In this document: positions 1-10,325 of the stretch, piece after piece
How the letters are laid out: each line of letters begins with the position of its first letter
How positions within the stretch are numbered: position 1 is the stretch's first letter
NCBI RefSeq assembly: GCF_024807845.1
Contig: NZ_JANUEQ010000007.1
Coordinates: forward strand, 1 to 64,000
DNA: 64,000 nt
Direction of reading: 5' to 3'
Origin: Klebsiella sp. BIGb0407
GTDB lineage: Bacteria > Pseudomonadota > Gammaproteobacteria > Enterobacterales > Enterobacteriaceae
The notes under the pieces: generated by a model
The model's database searches: none
What the model was told of the DNA's origin: nothing
What the model saw: only the letters and a program-made list of their open reading frames with translations
Program-made: the position numbers and the translations under genes

Positions 1-103
1 GCGGTGGTCCCACCTGACCCCATGCCGAACTCAGAAGTGAAACGCCGTAGCGCCGATGGTAGTGTGGGGTCTCCCCATGCGAGAGTAGGGAACTGTCAGA
101 CAT
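1..103 (+). rRNA. rrf: 5S ribosomal RNA, 3' part
   Basis: The window opens about 17 nt inside a 5S rRNA gene. The sequence from position 1 follows the enterobacterial 5S consensus and ends in a segment that would pair with the missing 5' end (GTCAGACA). It is followed at once by an intrinsic terminator, so this is the end of an rRNA operon transcribed towards fis. The link to fis points to the rrnD locus of E. coli. The exact 3' end is placed by comparison with E. coli 5S. Confidence 0.93.
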
Positions 104-117
104 CAATTAAGCAGAAA

Positions 118-143
118 CCCCAGTCGAAAGACTGGGGTTTTTT
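118..143 (+). terminator. rRNA operon intrinsic terminator
   Basis: A perfect 8-bp GC-rich stem (CCCCAGTC/GACTGGGG) with a GAAA tetraloop is followed by six T residues, 14 nt after the 5S 3' end. This is a standard rho-independent rrn terminator. Confidence 0.93.
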
Positions 144-301
144 GCGTTTATGGCTTTAATTTTCTTTTCTCTGAACCAGAGTCCGCCGGATTTTACGCTG
201 AGACAAGGTGGCAAATTCGGGCGGGGAAGGAGCATACTCCGGTATGTGACTGAGCTGACCGGACGCAGCCAACGCGGTATCAGGGTAAAAGACAAAGGAC
301 T

Positions 302-406
302 TAGCGCCGAGGGTAGTGTGGGGTCTCCCATGCGAGAGTAGGGAACTGTCAGACATCAATTAAGCAGAAACCCCAGTCGGAAGACTGGGGTTTTTTGCGT
401 TTATGG
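302..406 (+). repeat. Second copy of 5S 3' end plus terminator
   Basis: This stretch repeats positions 48-153 almost base for base. The only differences seen are one T-to-G change, one C lost from the CCCC run and one A-to-G change in the terminator loop. It contains the last half of a 5S gene and its terminator but not the 5' half, so it cannot make a full 5S RNA. E. coli rrnD has a second distal 5S gene (rrfF) after thrV. This copy may be the remnant of such a gene, but no tRNA-Thr is visible in the spacer 154-301, where I see no gene. Confidence 0.9.
371..396 (+). terminator. Duplicate rrn terminator
   Basis: The same stem as at 118-143 with loop GGAA instead of GAAA and six T residues. 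It belongs to the duplicated 5S tail and would act as a second terminator behind the rRNA operon. Confidence 0.9.
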
Positions 407-426
407 AATACCAGATTCATATATTA

Positions 427-462
427 AAAAAGGCGCTTTCTCATACTGAGTAGCGCCTTTTT
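427..462. terminator. Bidirectional terminator, fis-terminator copy
   Basis: An 11-bp inverted repeat (AAAAAGGCGCT/AGCGCCTTTTT) with A-tract on one side and T-tract on the other can stop transcription from both sides. It lies 18 bp after the stop codon of the small gene at 481-663. The 38-nt stretch 424-461 matches 34 of 38 positions of the fis terminator region at 10843-10880, in the same orientation. Confidence 0.85.
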
Positions 463-480
463 ATCAGTAGCTTAGGTGAC

Positions 481-663
481 TTAACCTTTAGGTTCAATAC
501 CTTGCTGCTCTAACTTATTCTGATGTTGTTTCCTGGTTAGCTCTGCTTCTTTACGGGCTTTTTCAGCCAGAGCTTCAACTTCTTCTTCGCTAACCAACTC
601 GCTGGCTTCATGCATTTTTGCCAGACCTTCGTTTACATCGGTTTCCAGCGGATCTTTGCTCAT
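481..663 (-). CDS. Small charged helical protein, unknown function
   Basis: This codes for a 60-residue protein very rich in Glu, Lys and Ala with no hydrophobic segment, so probably a soluble, largely alpha-helical protein. The start at 663 was chosen because a purine-rich ribosome-binding site (GGAAGAGAG) lies 7 nt upstream. A longer reading from 702 has no such signal. A terminator follows directly. I do not recognise the family and assign no function. It stands alone between the rRNA operon and the fimbrial operon, on the same strand as the latter. Confidence 0.7.
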   Translation of the reverse strand: MSKDPLETDVNEGLAKMHEASELVSEEEVEALAEKARKEAELTRKQHQNKLEQQGIEPKG

Positions 664-766
664 AGATATCTCTCTTCCGGAAAAAATAGACTCTATGAGC
701 ATAGATCAATCACTCGCAGTATTTTTGATTATTTGCGCTACTGGAAGGTCCGCATAAAAGGCCAAG

Positions 767-2878
767 TTAAGGCCAAGATATCATAAGTTTAGCTGTTGCT
801 CTTCCTACACCCACTGCCAAGGGGTCATTCACACTTAGGTCATACATATTGTAGGGAATGTCAACTATTATGTCTCTCCACGATACAGGTACGAAGTACT
901 GAGTCCCATCTAGATAGATTTCTTGCGATGAGTTAGGTAGGCCGAACGAGACTGAAGCAACGGGACTTCCTGAATCATTTTTCAAAGACAGAGCACTATC
1001 TATTTGACCATTTGGTAAAGAAGTCAGATTATTCCCCCTAATGGATATTCCCAAATTGTCAGATGAACTATCATCACGTTCATTACAGGTTCCTCGAATG
1101 CTTATAACACCAGAATCGATCAATCGCCCAGTACCACTTTGAAGAAGTGCATTCGCAGGTGAAATATTTGTCGGCGACACATTAATGGCGCATTGTCGTT
1201 CTAACACAGTGATATCAGCCGGTTCTTGAATCCTTGTTGCATTACCTAACTTACACGTATTTCCACCACTTAGAACGCCAAATCTGTACCTCCCAGGCCG
1301 TGCATTTGGTCCTATGTAAACACGAGCACTAAGCGAGGTGGTTCCGGAAGTCGGCCCAGTAGTATTTCTCATATTAGACGAGGGAATTATAAAAAAGTTA
1401 CCGGAGTTGGCTTCCTCCGAGGGGAGATTAGCAGTCCATCGTCCATCCATCCCAAAGGTAACGCGGTATACTTCGTCCCCATTACCCGCGGTAGAGAGAG
1501 CACTCTTAAGACTTGGGTTAATGCTCTCTAATGTACCGGTAAAAAAGACCAGAACATCGGACGCAGCACCGTAAAAAAATAATCCGTAATACAATCCGTC
1601 ACTGCTTGTCCCCCACTCATCATTGATACCTGTATAGGTCGAGTGGATCGCAACTCCGTATGATGGCCGGTTGCAGTCTTGTGAGGCCGCTGATCCATTG
1701 CCCCACACGGGCACGTCGGTCCCTAAGACGCCAGCCCCAGGCCAATATTCCCCAGTTTCAAAGGCAGAGTGTACAGGGGGGGAGATGGTCAAACTTGCTA
1801 TTATTATAACTAGACTCCTCTGGATAACCTTCAGATAGCTCATCCGTCGTTGGTAGAGGGAGTTTATTCGAAAAATGGGTAAGACCAAGGTCATGTACAC
1901 CCGGTGGGCACCTGGGTTGTTTCCAAACCACCTTGCCCAGCGTTTCTTATACTCCGACACCCGTTGTTTCTGTCGGTCCTTAGGCCAGTGCTGGGTTTGC
2001 TCATAAAGCCGTCGCAGTTTTTCTTGGTGATTAGCTTTTGCCCTGGGGGCGATATCGGTCACACCTGCATCCGTTAACCAGGCTCCCATCCAGTCAAAGC
2101 CTTTTGTAATTCGTCCTATAAACGTTTTTTCAGGATGTTTCTCAAAACCAAACTGGTTCAGGTAACGATTCAGTTGTTTTACTTGGCGACGCAGTGACCA
2201 GCGCGTTGCGGTTAAAATTAAAAAATCGTCCATATAGCGAGCATAATAGATTTTTTCTTGTGTGGCAAAATAGTGATCTACCACCCAAAGATGCAAGGCC
2301 CCCATTAAGGGACTTAAAGCACAACTGCGTGCTATCCCTTGTGTCGGTGTATGAAAATTGCCACCTTCTTCGACACTGTAGTGCAAAAATTGTCGTAGCA
2401 GTGATAACAATGCGGGTCGGGCGATATGTGCTGTTAATTGCAGTAACAGCGTATCCGTATTGATCGCACCATAATACCCCTTGATATCGGTTCGACAGAC
2501 CCAGCGATACGCCTGGGTGCTGATCGCATCTTGTACTCGCTGTACTGAGGCCTGCCCACCACCATGCCCTTTCAGATGTTCACATTTTTCATGCAGTTGG
2601 ATATCACCCACCAGTTGCAACGCGACCCACTTAAGCGCCAAGGCATCTTCTGCTGACCACACCACTTGCCGTTCACGCCCGACCACTCGCATCGGTGATA
2701 AACGGTATTCACCGGACTGCAATTGCGCGAGGAAGATCTCCCGATACGCGGTCCAGCGGTAGCGTAAATCCCATATATCGGCATTCGCGGGGGCTGATTT
2801 TCGTGCCTGGCATAACCACTGCCAGCTTATGTCGAGACGCAGACTATCCATGTGCTGTTGTTCATTTATCGTTGTCAT
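767..2878 (-). CDS. Reverse transcriptase fused to fimbrial tip adhesin
   Basis: A single uninterrupted 703-codon frame joins two unrelated proteins. Residues about 60-320 form a reverse transcriptase: motif A with Asp131 (TDIKGYY), motif B at 181-190 (GIARSCALSP), motif C YMDD at 215-218, then a helical region and the KTFIGR segment. It most resembles group II-intron-like bacterial reverse transcriptases of unknown function, not diversity-generating or retron enzymes. Residues 346-372 are a classical signal peptide (MSYLK start, hydrophobic core, cleavage after VHSA). Residues 373-703 look like a two-domain fimbrial adhesin: an N-terminal binding domain with Cys402 and Cys542 and a C-terminal pilin domain with Cys563 and Cys598. 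The start at 2878 has a good GGAG site 7 nt upstream. It is the last gene of the operon, 74 bp after the usher, and holds the operon's only adhesin candidate. Whether one fusion protein is made or the adhesin starts separately at residue 346 is open. No intron RNA, retron RNA or template repeat is visible. Confidence 0.88.
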   Translation of the reverse strand: MTTINEQQHMDSLRLDISWQWLCQARKSAPANADIWDLRYRWTAYREIFLAQLQSGEYRLSPMRVVGRERQVVWSAEDALALKWVALQLVGDIQLHEKCEHLKGHGGGQASVQRVQDAISTQAYRWVCRTDIKGYYGAINTDTLLLQLTAHIARPALLSLLRQFLHYSVEEGGNFHTPTQGIARSCALSPLMGALHLWVVDHYFATQEKIYYARYMDDFLILTATRWSLRRQVKQLNRYLNQFGFEKHPEKTFIGRITKGFDWMGAWLTDAGVTDIAPRAKANHQEKLRRLYEQTQHWPKDRQKQRVSEYKKRWARWFGNNPGAHRVYMTLVLPIFRINSLYQRRMSYLKVIQRSLVIIIASLTISPPVHSAFETGEYWPGAGVLGTDVPVWGNGSAASQDCNRPSYGVAIHSTYTGINDEWGTSSDGLYYGLFFYGAASDVLVFFTGTLESINPSLKSALSTAGNGDEVYRVTFGMDGRWTANLPSEEANSGNFFIIPSSNMRNTTGPTSGTTSLSARVYIGPNARPGRYRFGVLSGGNTCKLGNATRIQEPADITVLERQCAINVSPTNISPANALLQSGTGRLIDSGVISIRGTCNERDDSSSDNLGISIRGNNLTSLPNGQIDSALSLKNDSGSPVASVSFGLPNSSQEIYLDGTQYFVPVSWRDIIVDIPYNMYDLSVNDPLAVGVGRATAKLMISWP
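1763..1843 (-). other. Internal signal peptide, possible separate adhesin start
   Basis: Met346 of the fusion begins a 27-residue segment with Lys and Arg near its start, a hydrophobic core (LVIIIASL) and a signal-peptidase site after HSA. Initiation here would give a 358-residue adhesin precursor, the usual size of two-domain tip adhesins. Only a weak purine stretch precedes this ATG, so independent translation would be poor unless coupled to reverse-transcriptase translation. If only the full fusion is made, this segment would be an internal membrane anchor or a cleavable internal signal. Confidence 0.7.
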
Positions 2879-2952
2879 CTTGCTGCTCCATCAGGTGACT
2901 ATTATTCATTGTTTTCAAGGTAAGAATTCAACTTGCTGCCACTGCTGTTGCG

Positions 2953-5598
2953 TTATCTCTCCCTTGGAGGAAGATCCCGCGCCTCGTCAGGGATACAACT
3001 ATAGGTCGCTTGGGCTAATAGAGACTCTGCCGTGCTGGTTTGCTGGCTCACATCAAAGCTGACCTGGCATTGTTGCTCCTCACGGCTACCCCATTTCACT
3101 ATCAAGTCACCCTTCGACGGCAACCCAGTGAGATAGACTTGCCCTTCATCGCCGACAATACTGCTGATTGGGTTGGCGGTATCACTAGATATGACTGTTG
3201 CTGTCGCCCCAAAGGGCACATATTTATCGTCCTGTTTGATGGTCATGAGCATTTTATAGCCAATGCGGGTGGTAAAGTTTGCTTTCACCACCGCACCTTT
3301 TGTCGGGTAAACGTTGATATTTGACTGGGTTAAATCGACATGAGGGGGAAGCGTGCTGGGGTCTAAGCCAATGCTATTTTTGTTATAATCCGCCAGGTAA
3401 GGGGCCACGGCATAGCCCCGCCAGTCGGTTACGGCGGTACCATTATTGACGCTGACACCACTTGCTCCGGGGGCGCTGACCAGCGCAACCGAATCGCCCA
3501 TCGATCTTGCGAACGTGATACCTTCCGAATGCACAAGTACGCCGCCGCTGGCGTTAATATTCAGGCTCTGGGTGTTAGCGCTATAACTGTACCCGCTACT
3601 GACTGAGCCTTTACTGCCTTGATATCCGGCATTGAGGTTGCTATTCGCCGTCTGGCCTTGATTGCCCCAGCTTTGTGACGCCCCGTAGGAGAGTCTACCG
3701 CCCAGTACATTGCCGCTCAGTCCGGTGTTATTGCGCGTTCTGCCCTTATTATCATGGCTTACAGAGTAGTTCGCATACATTGAGCGCATGTTTTCAGTAT
3801 GGCTAAAAATGCTGAACGGCAGGCTGACATTTAAAGAGAGCTGACGGTTTTCCGGCCAGTCGCCACGTGAGTCTTTGATGCGGTCAATATTGTAATTCAC
3901 GCCATAGCTTACACCCCTAATACTGTTGTTGTAGCCCACAGACATACCGGTTAACGAGTGGTCGCTGCCCCAGTAATCATCGCGGTTTGCCCGCAGGCGT
4001 AATGACCCCATACTGCCCATTTGTTGGCTAATCTGGGTTTGAAAACTACTGCGCCGACGCTGCAATAACCAGGGGCTGACGCCGTCTTCCAGGCGGTAAC
4101 CCTGGCTATTAAATTCACTGAAGTTATAGAAATCCTCGGTGGAATAACGCAAGGCGGTTAAGTCCACTGAGGTGCCGGTTGAGATCATACTTTTCGAATA
4201 ACGAACCCGGTACGATTGCCCTGTTTTTTTCTCGCTATGCGAAGTATTGGTGTAGGCGAACTGTGAGGAGGAATGCGTTACATCGGTGGAAATAGCCCCC
4301 AGCTGCCCCAGTGACACACCGGTGCCCGCACTCGCTGATTGGTAGTCTCTGGCAAGCACCATGCCGCCATAGAGCGTGATGTTGTTATACAGACCGTACA
4401 CCGCAGTCCCGAGGATAAAATCTGAACGACGCGAGCTGGAGGTGAGGTTGCCATCATAGCGGCCTGAGGCTAACTCGTACTTCCAGCTGCCGGGGCGCAG
4501 CATCATCGGTAATGAAGAGTAGGGGACGATAAACTGCCGCTCCGTGCCATCGGCCTCGGTAACAGTGACATCATAATCCCCTGACAAACCCGCCTGTTGA
4601 ATGTCATTGATATTAAAGGGACCGGGGGCTACATAGGTTTCATACACCACATTGCCATTCTGGCGGACGGTGATGCGGGCATTACTGTTTGCCACCCCGG
4701 TAATGGCCGGGGCATAGCCGCGTAGCTGGCTCGGTAGCATCTGCTCATTTGACACCAGCTGTATTCCCTTAAAGGGAATACCATCGAGCACATCATTGCG
4801 GGTGTAGGTTTCCCCCACCACCAGACTCGACCTTAACGCCTGAATATCACGGGCTAGTGTCGTATTGCTGAACTGAGTCTGGGTATTGACCGAGCGGGAA
4901 TAATTCTGCGCCCCGCTGTATTCAGAATGCGTGTGGGTCAGGGTACTGCGCAGCCGCCATGCGCCTGCATTCGCGCCAGCACGCACCGAGGCAAACAGAT
5001 TAGTGCTATCGGTCGTGGATTGTTGATAGCTATTACGGGTACGGCCTGCGCTGAGATTATAATTCGCCGTTAAGGCCGGGATGCCGTCTTCCCATAATTT
5101 GGGGTCAACATAGCCCGAAATATTAGGCTTCATGGCTACCTGAGGCACACTGATATTGAGGCGTAACCGTGCCAGGTCTAACGAAGTGGTGGCTTGCGGT
5201 ATCACTGCACCCAAATCCGAAACCACTGCTGTTACCGGTAGGGCTTTTAACGCCGGCAGCTGGGCCATATTGACCCCAAAGGTTTCGAGCTGCTCTGGCG
5301 TTAACTCAGGTGCGACTTGCCCTTGCGCGTTTTTCACAAACTGGAGCGTATACTGCCCCATATCCTGCTGGTTAATAAACACCGATACGGTATATTCACC
5401 TTCAGCTACGCTGCCCGCCCGCGAAAAAACCGAGAGATCAACCTCAGAATACTCCCCGGAGACACCTAAAAAACTCGGATCAAAATAATCTTCAGCGAAG
5501 GCCGGAACAGCAGCCGCCATCAGGCACCAGGCCAGCGGGTGGTAACGAAAAAATCCATCTATCATTTTTTTCCCAGCTGTTTTGCAGCAAATTTCCAT
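2953..5598 (-). CDS. Fimbrial outer-membrane usher
   Basis: This 881-residue protein is the outer-membrane usher that receives chaperone-subunit complexes and extrudes the fimbria. A signal peptide ends near AVPAFA, followed by the usher N-terminal domain starting EDYFDPSFL. The central part is the beta-barrel with plug (LPSQLRGYAP, APGPFNINDI) and the C-terminal domains carry a Cys pair (QCQV, YSCI). The length is typical. The start at 5598 has GAGG 6 nt upstream; an internal Met at 5565 is possible. It lies 81 bp after the third chaperone and is the only usher of this operon, so it must serve all three chaperones and every subunit. Confidence 0.93.
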   Translation of the reverse strand: MEICCKTAGKKMIDGFFRYHPLAWCLMAAAVPAFAEDYFDPSFLGVSGEYSEVDLSVFSRAGSVAEGEYTVSVFINQQDMGQYTLQFVKNAQGQVAPELTPEQLETFGVNMAQLPALKALPVTAVVSDLGAVIPQATTSLDLARLRLNISVPQVAMKPNISGYVDPKLWEDGIPALTANYNLSAGRTRNSYQQSTTDSTNLFASVRAGANAGAWRLRSTLTHTHSEYSGAQNYSRSVNTQTQFSNTTLARDIQALRSSLVVGETYTRNDVLDGIPFKGIQLVSNEQMLPSQLRGYAPAITGVANSNARITVRQNGNVVYETYVAPGPFNINDIQQAGLSGDYDVTVTEADGTERQFIVPYSSLPMMLRPGSWKYELASGRYDGNLTSSSRRSDFILGTAVYGLYNNITLYGGMVLARDYQSASAGTGVSLGQLGAISTDVTHSSSQFAYTNTSHSEKKTGQSYRVRYSKSMISTGTSVDLTALRYSTEDFYNFSEFNSQGYRLEDGVSPWLLQRRRSSFQTQISQQMGSMGSLRLRANRDDYWGSDHSLTGMSVGYNNSIRGVSYGVNYNIDRIKDSRGDWPENRQLSLNVSLPFSIFSHTENMRSMYANYSVSHDNKGRTRNNTGLSGNVLGGRLSYGASQSWGNQGQTANSNLNAGYQGSKGSVSSGYSYSANTQSLNINASGGVLVHSEGITFARSMGDSVALVSAPGASGVSVNNGTAVTDWRGYAVAPYLADYNKNSIGLDPSTLPPHVDLTQSNINVYPTKGAVVKANFTTRIGYKMLMTIKQDDKYVPFGATATVISSDTANPISSIVGDEGQVYLTGLPSKGDLIVKWGSREEQQCQVSFDVSQQTSTAESLLAQATYSCIPDEARDLPPRER

Positions 5599-5679
5599 GG
5601 AATACCTCTGTCCGGTTTGCGATACCGCCTATCTTCGGCAGGGTGTCGCAGATAAAAATGGCGTCCTTTTCTTATCGGG

Positions 5680-6471
5680 TTAACGCTTAACTTCAGGGAG
5701 CTGTTTCTGATAAATTTTGTCACTGACTCCCCCCTTATCGTTAATTACTTGCCATTCGATATTCTTTGGCGCTTTATCCAGAACCATTGGCCAGCGCTGT
5801 TCACTGTAGGGGGCTATCATCCGGGTGTTGCCTAAATCCACTGCCTGACGATTCACGGATAATCGGTCGAAGGTGACATAAAATGCGCTTGGGTTTTTAA
5901 CCGTGATGTCGCTTGTCGCTGGTACAAATTGCAGTTGGTTATTGATTGTCTCCTCGTCAGGCCTTTGGAGCGCTGCCGGGCGGTAAAACAGTTTCACGTT
6001 GTTTTGCACGGCGATAACCATCTGTGGCGTTGTTGATGTCTGTTCCGGCTTCTCGGCAGGAATAGCCGTTAATGCCAGGACCGCTATCGACTCACGATCC
6101 TGTGGGTGCAAATCATGCTGTTTTAATCGCAGATGTAAGGTGACCGTTTCCCCGACATCGATGCGCTGTAGCGGCGGTAAGGCAATAAATGCCCGGCTAT
6201 TATCAGACTGCTCGCCAGCTTTCAGTGATGACTCATTTGCTGATGGTTCCCAAGGCTGTATCCGCGCTTGCAGCAAATAAGGCACCGAGCTGTTATTGGT
6301 CAGTTGATAGGTCACACCGTTGGTAGCCGTGGATGGGTAAACCACCCGCGTATTGTGTAGCGTGATACCGGTCATTCCCTGCGGTGTGCTCGCCTGAGCC
6401 CAGCCACTCAAACTGCTCAAAAGCACCCCGATACTGGCTTTTATCTTCCAGTTGACGGCAGATTCAGTCAT
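5680..6471 (-). CDS. Periplasmic fimbrial chaperone (third of operon)
   Basis: A 263-residue PapD-like chaperone that would hold fimbrial subunits in the periplasm by donor-strand complementation. It has a signal peptide, an N-terminal immunoglobulin-like domain with the TRVVYPS strand, the conserved DRES segment before the G1-type strand, and the KLFYRPAAL motif at the domain boundary. The ATG overlaps the stop of the preceding chaperone by 4 nt, which suggests translational coupling. It is more diverged from the other two chaperones of the operon than they are from each other, so it may serve a particular subunit, possibly the adhesin encoded two genes on. That assignment is inference. Confidence 0.92.
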   Translation of the reverse strand: MTESAVNWKIKASIGVLLSSLSGWAQASTPQGMTGITLHNTRVVYPSTATNGVTYQLTNNSSVPYLLQARIQPWEPSANESSLKAGEQSDNSRAFIALPPLQRIDVGETVTLHLRLKQHDLHPQDRESIAVLALTAIPAEKPEQTSTTPQMVIAVQNNVKLFYRPAALQRPDEETINNQLQFVPATSDITVKNPSAFYVTFDRLSVNRQAVDLGNTRMIAPYSEQRWPMVLDKAPKNIEWQVINDKGGVSDKIYQKQLPEVKR

Positions 6472-7229
6472 TTTCCCTCTCCCTTTGATGCCAGACTGCC
6501 CTGGTAACGGGGGCTCATATCACCAAAGTCAGTGATAGCAGACCATTCAACCTGGGTTCCTCGCCCGGTAAATGGGTAAGACTGCTGTGAAAAGGGGGCA
6601 ATCATCGGGTCATGCTGGCCGACATCCAGCAGTTGCTTATTGATCGTCACCTGAGCCAGGGTCACGTAATAGGGCGTGGGGTTACTTACCTCAATTCGCC
6701 CACCCGCTTGCCGGAAGCTCAGCTTGCTGTAGGCGGTCTCCGCGTTCATAGGTAACGCCGCGGGTCGATAAAACAATTTGATGATATTGCGAATACCAAT
6801 CGATATTTGCGCCATCGTCATATTTTCTTCGGGCTCACCTGTTTTGGCAGAAGCTGGAATGGCTAAAAAGCTCAGGTAAAAAACCGATTCTCTGTCCGCT
6901 GGTAGCTGTGTGGCACCCTGGCGCACCACTAAAGCGGTATGCTGGCTTTCCGGCTCCAGACGAAACAACGGCGGGGTGACCATAAAGGGTGATGCCGTCA
7001 TATCCTGAACGTCGGGGGTATTCATCACCGATGCCTTGACCAGATAGACTTGCGGGCTGTTATTGATAATGATGGCTTTGGCATTAGACTGCTGGGCGTC
7101 AAAAACCACACGTGTTTGCGCTAAACGTAATCCGCCTTTTGCGTCACTTATCGGTGTATGCAGGATCCCGGTTGCCAGGACAAGAGCACAGAGCCTGGCA
7201 GTAGGTGACGGAGAGTGGGGTAGAATCAT
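6468..7229 (-). CDS. Periplasmic fimbrial chaperone (second of operon)
   Basis: A 253-residue PapD-like chaperone with signal peptide, the strand TRVVFDA, the segment LPADRESVFYLSF typical of the family, and IKLFYRPAAL before the second immunoglobulin-like domain. The ATG at 7229 was chosen because it begins the signal peptide and has an AGGACGG element upstream. A TTG at 7256 would extend it by nine residues into the preceding gene. It lies 13 bp after the second minor pilin gene. Like its neighbour it folds fimbrial subunits and delivers them to the usher. Confidence 0.9.
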   Translation of the reverse strand: MILPHSPSPTARLCALVLATGILHTPISDAKGGLRLAQTRVVFDAQQSNAKAIIINNSPQVYLVKASVMNTPDVQDMTASPFMVTPPLFRLEPESQHTALVVRQGATQLPADRESVFYLSFLAIPASAKTGEPEENMTMAQISIGIRNIIKLFYRPAALPMNAETAYSKLSFRQAGGRIEVSNPTPYYVTLAQVTINKQLLDVGQHDPMIAPFSQQSYPFTGRGTQVEWSAITDFGDMSPRYQGSLASKGEGK

Positions 7230-7242
7230 CAAGGCTTCCGTC

Positions 7243-7815
7243 CTAGTTATAGACAAAGGTAAAGGTGAGGTTAGAGGTCAATACCCCTCCCCGTACGTTG
7301 GCGGGCTGACAGCTGCCACAGCTTAAAATGGCATTGAGCAGCAAATTTCCGTTAAGAGACGCCACATTCTCGCTACCTGCTGCAGGCCATGTATTTGTCG
7401 TTATCTCCTTGTTCGCCGCTAAATTGCTATTTGCCGCAAATACGCTGTTGCCTGAGGTGGTGAGCAAAACGCCATAGCCAATTGTTGTACTGCTGCTATT
7501 GGCGAATAATGTTTTACCGTTAATCAGCTGCGTCTCTCCTGCCACAGTGATGATCGGTTTCATAAAATATCCCTGGCAATTACTCAGGTTTAGCAACAGA
7601 TCGCTACGCACATTTTCACCCGGGATAGTGTCCTGCGGAACTACGCCCTGGCTATAGGTGACGGCTGCCGGGGCGGTGATATCACAGCCTCCGCCATAAA
7701 AGGTGGCCGTAAATTGAATATCTTGCTCAGCACGTCCCGCCGCCTGAAGTTGAGAGACAGGCAGTAGCAACCCGACGATGAGCGTGAGTAAAGAACGTTT
7801 GTATATGAGCGTCAT
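7243..7815 (-). CDS. Minor fimbrial subunit, duplicated paralogue B
   Basis: A 190-residue pilin-like subunit. After a signal peptide ending near LQAAG it has a first Cys in GGGCDITAP and its partner in LSNCQGY, the usual pilin disulphide. A second pair sits close together near the C-terminus (SCGSC). The end (LTFTFVYN) is the donor or acceptor strand typical of chaperone-usher subunits. It is clearly a paralogue of the preceding gene: the CDI, SSSTT.GYG.LL and LSCG.C blocks line up. The ribosome-binding site is GAGAGG. The CxxC-like pair is uncommon in pilins. Confidence 0.88.
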   Translation of the reverse strand: MTLIYKRSLLTLIVGLLLPVSQLQAAGRAEQDIQFTATFYGGGCDITAPAAVTYSQGVVPQDTIPGENVRSDLLLNLSNCQGYFMKPIITVAGETQLINGKTLFANSSSTTIGYGVLLTTSGNSVFAANSNLAANKEITTNTWPAAGSENVASLNGNLLLNAILSCGSCQPANVRGGVLTSNLTFTFVYN

Positions 7816-7870: not shown

Positions 7871-8449
7871 TCATTGATAGACAAAATTAAAGGTGAGAGA
7901 GGCATTGAGTACTCCGCCTTGCAGAGTACTTGCCGTGCAGGTTCCGCAGCTGACTACCGCTTTAAGGGGAATGGTGCCATTCAAGGTACTTGCCATAGTA
8001 CTGTCCCAGGTTTTTGTTACCGCCACGATATTTTTAGTGGTCGCTAAGTTGGTGCTGGCGGAGAAATTAGTGTTACCTGTGGTGGATAATAAAATACCGT
8101 AACCTTTGCTGGTGCTGCTGCTTGAGACAAATAAAAGGGTGCCAGAGTCGTTGTCAGCATCCCCGACAATACTGATGGAAGGCGTCAGCCCGAACCCTTT
8201 GCAGCCACTAAGAGTCAGGTCAAAGGTGTCCGAAATATCGCTGGTTGGCGTAATACTGGCCGCGGAAATGGGCTCACCATCCATAATAGAAACCGTTGCG
8301 GGGGCGGCAATATCACATGAGCCTCCGACGATATTGGCGGTGATAGTGGTATTTGCTGATGTGGCTGCGAAAACGGGTGAGGTGATACTCAATGCACTGA
8401 CCACGGCAGCCAGGCAAAGTGGTATAGCGTTGTTATTTAATATTTTCAT
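7871..8449 (-). CDS. Minor fimbrial subunit, duplicated paralogue A
   Basis: A 192-residue pilin-like subunit with signal peptide (cleavage near PVFA). The N-terminal disulphide is formed by the Cys in GGSCDIAAP and the one in LSGCKGF. A close Cys pair SCGTC lies near the C-terminus and the last strand is LTFNFVYQ. It is similar along its whole length to the next gene downstream, so the two arose by tandem duplication. The duplication with retained reading frames suggests two related subunits in the fibre, for example shaft and tip adaptor. The start has AAGGA upstream. Confidence 0.88.
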   Translation of the reverse strand: MKILNNNAIPLCLAAVVSALSITSPVFAATSANTTITANIVGGSCDIAAPATVSIMDGEPISAASITPTSDISDTFDLTLSGCKGFGLTPSISIVGDADNDSGTLLFVSSSSTSKGYGILLSTTGNTNFSASTNLATTKNIVAVTKTWDSTMASTLNGTIPLKAVVSCGTCTASTLQGGVLNASLTFNFVYQ

Positions 8450-8472: not shown

Positions 8473-9024
8473 TTATTGAAAAAAAACATTAAAAGTAAGT
8501 GCTGAAAAAAACTTACCCGGTAATACATTCCCTTGAACCGGTCCGACCAGACCTACCCAAAAAACCTCCTCGGTATGATGCTGATTAGCGATATTTAAGG
8601 GCGATAATGACAGTGCCACCCCAGGTTTAATGGCTTTGTCGGGAGCATAGAAATCATTCAAAGAGGGCGCTGTACCTTCCCCGTGGCGTAACATAAATCC
8701 CACTCCATTAGGTTCCCCATCTAAAAAAATGGTGTCGGTATCGTAGGGGGTATGGCCTTCTATGCTGAGTCTGGGAACTAATTGAGTCGTTTTTTCCGGA
8801 CAGGCAAGTTCAGCACGTAAAGGTTTAATCTCGCGTGCCGTAGGCGCTCCTTGAAATGCTGACGTGCGTTGGGGTGTAAAGGTGAGGGAGACCGGTAAAC
8901 GAATTTCACATCCGATATCATCTGAGATAACCGCGCGGATATCTGTCTGGGCGGCAAAAGTCAGCGAAGACGTTCCCAGATAAAGGAGCACAATGCCCCC
9001 GATCAGGTTATTGCACCTTCCCAT
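8473..9024 (-). CDS. Minor fimbrial subunit / adaptor
   Basis: A 183-residue secreted protein with a signal peptide ending near TFAAQ and a pilin-like layout: a Cys in DIGCEIRLP paired with one in ELACPEK, and a C-terminal strand LTFNVFFQ. It is related to the two paralogues that follow but lacks their second Cys pair. The start at 9024 was preferred over 9051 because it begins the signal peptide and has a GGGGG element upstream. It overlaps the end of the preceding chaperone gene by 17 nt, so the two are probably translated together. Confidence 0.82.
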   Translation of the reverse strand: MGRCNNLIGGIVLLYLGTSSLTFAAQTDIRAVISDDIGCEIRLPVSLTFTPQRTSAFQGAPTAREIKPLRAELACPEKTTQLVPRLSIEGHTPYDTDTIFLDGEPNGVGFMLRHGEGTAPSLNDFYAPDKAIKPGVALSLSPLNIANQHHTEEVFWVGLVGPVQGNVLPGKFFSALTFNVFFQ

Positions 9025-9721
9025 GAAATACCCCCATACCACCGTAGTCATTAATTGCGATCCATTCCACAGTCCCTTGAAGAGGGGCTCGGGAATAGGT
9101 CTGGCGGCTCATTGGGGCTATAAGCGTATTACCTTGCTTCACGCTGATGGGTATGACCGTATTAGCAATTTTTAATGAGTTCAGCGTAATATAATACGGC
9201 GACGAATTATAAACAGTAACGCCATTTTCTGAGCGGGTGAATATTAAAGAACTCATCGCTTGCTGTTGCGACATTGCCAGATTCGCCGGGCGATAAAAGA
9301 GTTTTATCACACTCCCCGTTGATATTTGAACGTTACCGCCAATATTATTTTTTCCTTCCGCCTGGGCTTTATTACTGGCTGGAATAGCGATAGCCCGCAA
9401 ATAAAAAACCGACTCTTTATCTTGTGGTAATGGGACGTTTTTTTTCATAATCCGTACTTGGTTGGTTGCGCCCGGCTCTAAACGAAATAGCGAAGGCGTT
9501 ACCAGAAAAGGAGTCTCTCCCTGGTCACCATAGGGTGTGGCTAAAATTTGTGTGCGGATTAAATAGGGGGTTGGGGAATCACTGGAACTGACTATCCCGA
9601 CACTTTGCCCGGAGGTATCATCTGTGGATGAAAAGATAATACGCGTGGCGTCTAACGATATCCCTGCCCAGCATGACGCAGATAACCACAGCAAGCCACC
9701 CGCGAGTAAGATATTTCGCAT
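9008..9721 (-). CDS. Periplasmic fimbrial chaperone (first of operon)
   Basis: A 237-residue PapD-like chaperone with an 18-residue signal peptide (cleavage near CWA), the first-domain strand TRIIFSS, the LPQDKESVFYLRAIAIP segment, and IKLFYRPANL at the domain junction. It follows the major pilin gene, the normal position for the chaperone that supports shaft polymerisation. The operon carries two further chaperones downstream. Confidence 0.93.
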   Translation of the reverse strand: MRNILLAGGLLWLSASCWAGISLDATRIIFSSTDDTSGQSVGIVSSSDSPTPYLIRTQILATPYGDQGETPFLVTPSLFRLEPGATNQVRIMKKNVPLPQDKESVFYLRAIAIPASNKAQAEGKNNIGGNVQISTGSVIKLFYRPANLAMSQQQAMSSLIFTRSENGVTVYNSSPYYITLNSLKIANTVIPISVKQGNTLIAPMSRQTYSRAPLQGTVEWIAINDYGGMGVFHGKVQ

Positions 9722-9794: not shown

Positions 9795-10325
9795 TTAGTT
9801 CACAATATAGGCCACTAAAATTGGCGCACTATAGGCACCGGCCTCTGGCGTTAGCGTGGTGGTCGCCATACCCACATTAAAGGTGTAGCTTGCGCTGGTA
9901 GCTGCTGCGCCAATAGTCAGTGGAACGCCTTCTGTAATGACGTTACCTGCGGCGTCTTCAATCATAAAGCCGACTGGCTGAGAGCTTTCTGCCACGAATA
10001 CATTCTGTTCGGCATTACCGGTCGAGGTGGTGCCTTGAATCACCAACTCTCCAACCTCGCCTGCCGTACAACCGGTTAAGGCAACTGGCATAGCGACAGG
10101 ATTGGAAGTAATGGTATTCACTCCCGAGAAACTCGCTCCAGCCACACCGACTTTGGTATTAAAAACGCCGACATTGAGGGTAGATTTGCCCCCGTTGGTA
10201 TTAATAGTACAGGTGGTTGAGGTCAGAACACCTTGCAAGGTGACTTTCTCTGCTGCGATGGCATTAATAGTGAAAGCTGAAACAGAAGCGAGTAATGCCG
10301 TACGTAATATTAAAGATTTAACCAT
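9795..10325 (-). CDS. Major fimbrial subunit (pilin)
   Basis: The first gene of the operon encodes a 176-residue pilin of the FimA-like kind. It has a signal peptide ending AIAAE, then the typical KVTLQGVLTSTTCTI strand, a second Cys in LTGCTAG, and a C-terminal strand ending VAYIVN. The GAGGG site 8 nt before the ATG is strong, fitting high expression. The AT-rich 500 bp upstream must hold the operon promoter. Confidence 0.92.
   Translation of the reverse strand: MVKSLILRTALLASVSAFTINAIAAEKVTLQGVLTSTTCTINTNGGKSTLNVGVFNTKVGVAGASFSGVNTITSNPVAMPVALTGCTAGEVGELVIQGTTSTGNAEQNVFVAESSQPVGFMIEDAAGNVITEGVPLTIGAAATSASYTFNVGMATTTLTPEAGAYSAPILVAYIVN

Follow-up and report, generated by a model that had tools for sequence, protein, structure and literature searches.

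A UG4 reverse transcriptase fused to a putative fimbrial tip adhesin may belong to a family of adhesin-diversifying modules

The last gene of a fimbrial operon in Klebsiella sp. BIGb0407 raises the question of why a reverse transcriptase (RT) should share a polypeptide with an adhesin. The window, a stretch of 64,000 nt, carries on the minus strand at positions 767–2878 what a preliminary description had taken for one open frame encoding an RT, then a signal peptide and an adhesin, at the end of a chaperone-usher operon. The open-frame reading of the window bears this out, yielding 703 amino acids with no internal stop. It is proposed here, with a probability of about 0.57, that the gene is one fused representative of a family of modules, based on UG4 RTs, that diversify adhesins. 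The frame divides as follows:

1922..2878, minus strand: UG4 reverse transcriptase domain, residues 1–319 (profile, alignment, AlphaFold2)
1844..1921, minus strand: in-frame linker, residues 320–345 (26 residues), without stop codon (sequence)
767..1843, minus strand: signal peptide (from Met346) and putative tip adhesin, residues 346–703, stop codon included (sequence)

Judged from its sequence, the RT half looks intact. The RT_UG4 profile matches residues 15–319 (E 1.9e-127, 422.6 bits), the runner-up RT profile is RT_UG17 (95 bits, E 1.1e-27) and the Pfam family RVT_1 is matched at E 6.1e-14; the UG4 profile outscores those of the other RT groups, placing the domain in UG4. Asp131 of motif A and the YMDD at residues 215–218, both singled out in the preliminary description, are conserved across 16 aligned RTs (D131, M216, D217, and D218 invariant, Y215 nearly so), and the first Asp of YMDD is present in 61/61 loci. 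An AlphaFold2 model of the RT alone reaches a pLDDT of 90.3, and its nearest solved folds are the group II-type GsI-IIC and G2L4 RTs, with RTs of diversity-generating retroelements (DGRs) also scoring high. The model of the complete fused protein was set aside (pLDDT 45.7).

The second half is less readily named. Met346 precedes a hydrophobic signal-like stretch, SLVIIIASLTIS, at residues 355–366, as the preliminary description had it, but the 358-residue product has no match in Pfam, and the term “adhesin” stays putative, drawn from the place of the gene, the signal peptide, and a pilin-like C-terminus read by eye. Some relatives in the equivalent place match the Pfam families MrpH_C or Fimbrial. 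The fusion recurs as an uninterrupted frame in Cedecea sp. (719 aa), in K. pneumoniae ATCC 13883 (693 aa), and in one further genome (688 aa), which makes a stop-removing sequencing error, named earlier as a possible refutation, unlikely. With the window, these four genomes form one RT clade (support 100/98), and the ushers of the fused loci are 48–83% identical to that of the window. An ATG ahead of the hydrophobic stretch occurs in the window only, without a clear ribosome site, while the other fused loci have a GTG farther up; given this pattern, the adhesin may be made within the RT chain and then freed by signal peptidase, or may arise from a weak internal start. In the fused clade, with RT and adhesin in one frame, cleavage at the internal signal peptide could thus set the adhesin free while the RT stays behind in the cytoplasm.

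The remaining genes of the operon are:

2953..5598, minus strand: outer membrane usher (profile)
5680–6471, minus strand: periplasmic chaperone (profile)
6468–7256, minus strand: periplasmic chaperone (named by reading of the sequence)
7243–7815, minus strand: fimbrial subunit (named by reading of the sequence; without NCBIfam match)
7871–8449, minus strand: fimbrial subunit (named by reading of the sequence; without NCBIfam match)
8473–9051, minus strand: fimbrial subunit (named by reading of the sequence; without NCBIfam match)
9008–9721, minus strand: third chaperone (named by reading of the sequence)
9795–10325, minus strand: fimbrial subunit (reading of the sequence and a weak FimI-like profile match)

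The fused gene is the last of this operon, earlier described as complete. The fimbrial neighbourhood of UG4 RTs is present by profile in the usher and one chaperone, but the other chaperones and the subunits were named by reading, three of the subunits lacking an NCBIfam match. The genome of the window contains one UG4 RT and, in addition, two related usher operons without RT (L257 and L258); together with L259 and L260 from the same genus, whose ushers like theirs are 61–65% identical to that of the window, they served as controls. On the far side of the fused gene, a 73-aa ORF follows the adhesin at 481–702 on the minus strand, and a very similar sequence lies at the same place in the Cedecea relative. 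Positions 1–101 contain a 5S rRNA gene truncated by the beginning of the window. Some 250 nt downstream, at about 300–360, lies another partial 5S-like repeat, followed by the same terminator-like sequence. Rfam models applied to positions 1–6000 returned 5S rRNA at gathering scores and no other conserved RNA.

In overlapping genome samples, matches to the UG4 profile occur in 21/394 Enterobacterales genomes at E 1e-30 (8 of those reaching 1e-40; of 13 weaker loci examined, 11 fit the group II motif), in 12/392 genomes of the family at 1e-37 and in 6/369 genomes of the class at 1e-50. Among plasmid records, 47 match the window RT and 51 a Serratia RT. A single weak match was found in 50,697 phage records, and 1 of 80 loci kept from viral contigs (L127) looks like the UG4 family. 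Some genomes have several copies, with five RT places each in G549 and G700; in G549 (L245, L247, L250, and L253) the repeated module consists of a Wzz-like protein, a 148-aa protein, the RT, and an invasin-like protein. A Salmonella Poona plasmid (L211, L292) carries three units of inverse autotransporter and RT, two of them mutually inverted, near a tyrosine-type DNA invertase, with two of the RTs truncated. Between L294 and L045 the RTs are 97% and the flanking fimbrial operons 84% identical, as if the RT gene were transferred or converted between operons independently of its neighbours.

What adjoins the 3′ end of the RT was mapped for 62 loci, several of them with truncated or frameshifted RTs, with architecture labels set by hand. 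Left out were second copies of the same place (L001, L002, L003, L004, L007, L243, L244, L248, L249, L256, and L262–L268), loci with short flanks (L005, L006, L008–L010, L024, L025, and L215–L238) or a contig end (L071), weaker matches presumed to be group II introns (L011–L023 and L026–L032), and distant RT loci (L073–L126 and L128–L206); L239, a co-directional fimbrial case, was omitted by oversight. Where ORFs were present in both orientations, the longer or annotated one was taken (L050, L052, L055, L065, L067, L068, L070, L127, L212, L240, and L253), short ORFs in L042, L061, and L063 were scored as none, and L212 and L294 were labelled according to annotation tables. Signal-like starts were scored by a crude hydropathy window.

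Two arrangements dominate. In the 33 loci with a co-directional usher upstream, the RT stop is followed by a co-directional gene in 27, which begins −6 to +330 nt from that stop; RT and partner are fused in 4, and no open gene follows in 2. A signal-like start was found in 24 of the 26 co-directional partners scored. The other 29 loci comprise 22 with a convergent gene (its 3′ end between −174 and +226 nt relative to the RT stop; signal-like start in 17/22), 2 with a co-directional gene, and 5 with neither. Convergent partners, where identified in the part of the loci that was scanned, include inverse autotransporters with Ig-like stalks (one by Pfam) and, at four loci, Invasin_D4 proteins, and further a K88-type subunit scoring slightly below the Pfam cut-off, a large cadherin/Big protein, a protein with TSP3 repeats, a fibre-like match, a protein that starts like a type IV pilin, and a PEP-CTERM protein; two scanned partners (L052 and L072) gave no family. 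Of five additional loci, one fits clearly, two have co-directional genes of unknown kind, one does not fit (its partner reads as a rhomboid-like membrane protein), and one is cut by a contig end. In the clear fit, L295, the RT converges on a collagen-repeat protein with a weak, sub-threshold Lcl_C match near its C-terminus. The association of the RT is thus real and wider than fimbriae: homologues without a link to fimbriae, which the preliminary description had named as a refutation, do exist, but many of them adjoin another surface protein, such as an inverse autotransporter or an invasin-like protein.

Usher-pilus tip adhesins bind via their N-terminal domain and invasin-type proteins via their C-terminal domain, so that in both classes the 3′ end of the RT faces the binding end. 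In either orientation, then, the RT 3′ end seems to adjoin the binding end of its partner, which for the remaining partner kinds is a guess. A defence or regulatory enzyme, associated with adhesins through shared expression, would give no reason for two opposite orientations that each set the RT 3′ end against the neighbour, and no recurring defence gene lies beside the RT in the annotation tables read; PADLOC lists UG4 under DRT, a filing by name only, and this reading is considered very improbable. The tree of 40 intact RTs (38 UG4 and 2 outgroup rows) unites the fused forms (4 rows, 100/98) and the co-directional forms (23 rows, 100/99), with 11 convergent rows around them, and requires only 2 changes between the three forms. 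This tracking of architecture by the RT phylogeny speaks against a further explanation, in which diversifying selection and ordinary recombination vary all tip adhesins and the RT is a passenger, or a retroelement preferring such loci. In favour of that explanation, the RT can be better conserved than its operon (97% vs. 84% between L294 and L045), as would be expected of a mobile gene.

The boundary of divergence mostly coincides with the end of the RT. At the DNA level, the window aligns with its Cedecea relative throughout the operon as far as about position 1916, at the RT end; homology is then absent for about 1 kb and returns in the last 141 nt of the adhesin:

908..1915, minus strand: stretch without DNA alignment to the Cedecea relative, with aligning flanks (79% and 76%), read as the diversified part (DNA alignment)

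The identity of this pair is 92% for the RT, 83% for the usher, and 36% for the adhesin; the corresponding values for L043 of E. coli and L045 of E. albertii are 90%, 92%, and 22%. Among 21 pairs of loci with similar RTs, 15 lose homology between −9 and +34 nt relative to the end of the RT domain; the pairs are not independent, five Escherichia loci supplying ten of them. Among the remaining pairs, five marine ones end 149–193 nt short of the RT end (one with a second piece to +109) and one ends at +71.

Adhesin divergence between species was rejected as proof of diversification by the RT, as L258/L260, a pair without RT, looks similar to the pair formed by the window and the Cedecea relative. 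The adhesins of five RT-less operons likewise diverge fast (in one pair, usher 77% and adhesin 37%) and show flat codon usage, as selection and recombination alone would have it; the difference between RT-bearing and RT-less adhesins is not significant (p 0.21), and adhesins beside broken RTs (L254 and L255) look the same as those beside intact ones. Codon usage is flatter in adhesins near the RT (Nc about 55 vs. 47 for ushers), and the codon bias of autotransporters drops in the part adjoining the RT. This flattening was also rejected as proof of hypermutation, being shared by the five RT-less controls and by a Poona copy with a broken RT.

Two copies on the Salmonella Poona plasmid show no difference in 1361 compared synonymous codons farther from the RT, followed toward the RT by synonymous differences of 7/86, 28/54, 17/51, 21/31, and 13/24 and amino-acid identities of 87, 57, 51, 36, and 26%; beyond the divergent part, 535 nt of the RT are 96% identical, one of the two RTs being truncated. 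In three partner genes of G549 (that of L247, cut by a contig end, was left out), synonymous differences fall from 0.56–0.72 beside the RT to 0.10 at 1.2 kb, and in three RTs of this genome from 0.21–0.26 in the last 600 nt to 0.08–0.13 farther in. A gradient inside the RT gene was not seen in every pair compared. Selection alone fails to explain such a two-sided synonymous gradient. Also to be considered is a retro-conversion without high error, in which the RT would help to swap entire binding-domain cassettes drawn from a gene pool. In its favour, Salmonella and the copies in one genome show two-sided breaks, the DNA between the conserved flanks being unalignable, and divergence between the Poona copies starts sharply at codon 1458.

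Recent change is seen in near-identical plasmids, here counted for RT-bearing loci. Over 18.6 kb, two E. albertii plasmids, one of cowbird and one of stool origin, differ by 12 substitutions, 12/12 in the adhesin, and by 3 one-base gaps elsewhere. In a 22.5-kb part (L285, L286), 12/13 substitutions fall in the adhesin (p 1.4e-17 if rates were even). The full 39.9 kb aligned contain 144 substitutions. The other piece accounts for 131 of these, most of them grouped in three clusters such as recombination would leave; these tracts count in favour of ordinary recombination. The 12 adhesin changes sit 113–310 nt past the RT stop and affect 9 codons, 6 with nonsynonymous and 3 with synonymous changes, the latter being left unexplained by selection alone. 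Transversions make up 7/12 of them, as opposed to 40/131 in the clusters (p 0.06). Of the 4 sites that vary among five goat E. coli plasmids, 3 fall within the adhesin (594 nt), and one site carries A, T, and G among the five. Compared whole (84 kb), three goat plasmids differ pairwise by 2 substitutions, both in the adhesin, by 3, two of them in the adhesin, and by 1 outside it. A bird pair is not clearly enriched, with 1 change in 797 nt of adhesin vs. about 2 in 7054 nt upstream (the latter estimated from bit scores), and no changes were found in 18.9 kb of a Javiana pair, in the 1041 nt compared for a sheep E. coli pair, or in 9 kb of Poona copies 2 and 3. The adhesin end adjoining the RT is thus a hotspot of change in two plasmid groups and in duplicated copies. 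The preliminary description had proposed to look for base changes concentrated in the adhesin, especially at adenines: the clustering is found in these two groups, but adenine specificity was rejected, changes occurring at non-adenine sites in both. An A is present in one allele at 10/15 sites (8/12 in E. albertii and 2/3 in goat plasmids), the alleles being unpolarised, and C/G changes are present.

These changes could stem from gene conversion by an unseen allele. The E. albertii adhesin, however, is matched in 2 of 72,556 plasmid records, namely itself and a near-identical sister, and no donor was found there or in 5,426 E. coli genomes, a search that left out E. albertii chromosomes. In a search for near matches, the goat adhesin likewise retrieves from these plasmid records 6, itself and near-identical sisters. 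Selection with ordinary recombination is accordingly regarded as an unlikely account of these loci, albeit the strongest competitor. The exchange of whole cassettes, for which adhesin queries find no pool beyond the sequences themselves and their sisters, is also at odds with point-like changes and with three bases at one goat site, and is held to be improbable.

That the RT makes the adhesin changes is the most economical reading of these sequence comparisons. The stretch beside its 3′ end would code for the ligand-binding end of the partner, and the enzyme would copy an RNA that extends from its own 3′ region into the adjoining gene, in sense where the RT belongs to a fimbrial operon and in antisense where the partner converges. 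If this copying is of low fidelity and the cDNA replaces the source stretch, the adhesin would serve as its own template. The earlier suggestion that the enzyme acts on adhesin variation is the best-supported reading; changes cluster in the adhesin in two plasmid groups, and the other pairs show no enrichment. Region 4 of UG4 loci reads GIxR..ALSP, with Arg in 54/61 loci and Gln in 0/61 at a position, Arg184 in the window RT, where Gln occurs in group II RTs (11/11 presumed ones matched by pattern, 13 given). According to the available part of PMC3521204, the Gln of QGxxxSP (HIV Q151) is tied to fidelity; its replacement by Arg may lower the fidelity of UG4 RTs. Were all this so, a diversifier without template repeat would widen the notion of targeted mutation in bacteria, amounting to an engine by which bacterial surface binding proteins evolve as their own templates, with RT and substrate in a single gene in one clade. 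It may explain how a tip adhesin changes while the rest of the fimbrial operon stays, and could offer a compact laboratory tool for protein evolution.

The DGR is among the closest known systems. DGRs and UG4 loci both place an RT beside a surface protein with a hypervariable end, and the folds are alike (8ubd_A, TM 0.75). The variable stretch is about 0.6–1 kb in UG4 loci, in contrast to DGR repeats of about 100–150 nt. A classical DGR with a missed template repeat would act on the same kind of target, and one partner has the weak Lcl_C match below the Pfam cut-off, a family that we take to be DUF1566. DUF1566 is the most common target domain of DGRs (PMC6642488, available part). However, BLAST found no template repeat or second adhesin copy on two whole plasmids or in the window genome, where the adhesin query gave one 33-bp match (E 0.018), and no Avd annotation was noticed in the annotation tables read. 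The UG4 RT also lacks the (I/V/L)GxxxSQ motif present in 90% of DGRs (PMC3521204, available part), and its changes extend beyond adenine, an allele with A accounting for only 8/12 and 2/3 sites, whereas DGRs err at template adenines (PMC12875486, available part). For these loci a classical DGR is largely refuted and its likelihood very small. The UG4 module is best read as a DGR-like diversifier that is not a DGR, its RT probably copying the adhesin transcript itself. That UG4 RTs constitute a second, independently evolved class of RT-driven diversification, self-templated, miscopying all bases and overwriting the source with cDNA, is a tentative proposal to which we give somewhat less than even odds.

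By profile score the UG4 RT lies nearer to group II introns than to DGRs, yet it reaches 99.9 bits with group_II_RT_mat (cut-off 300), with no ribozyme RNA (Rfam, positions 1–6000) and no maturase family (Pfam). The G2L4 RT, for which we know of no adhesin link, has a close fold (9d4s, TM 0.79) and, like the UG4 RT, would lack an intron of its own. Its role is in double-strand break repair (PMC12337344, available part). With UG4 itself, the window RT shares the sequence family, the fimbrial neighbours already in print (PMC8934634), and the restriction to Proteobacteria (PMC4244168). In their available parts, these two papers mention fimbrial domains with the RT, but not this fused gene, nor a function, an orientation rule, non-fimbrial adhesin partners, or diversification. 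The literature searched, from which subscription journals were mostly out of reach, gave no UG4 function, which does not prove its absence. New from the present loci are the orientation rule, the non-fimbrial partners, the end of homology at the RT 3′ end, the adhesin-clustered substitutions, the Arg in place of Gln, and the template repeat sought and not found; together they offer a testable function for an RT class that the literature found had known by its neighbours alone.
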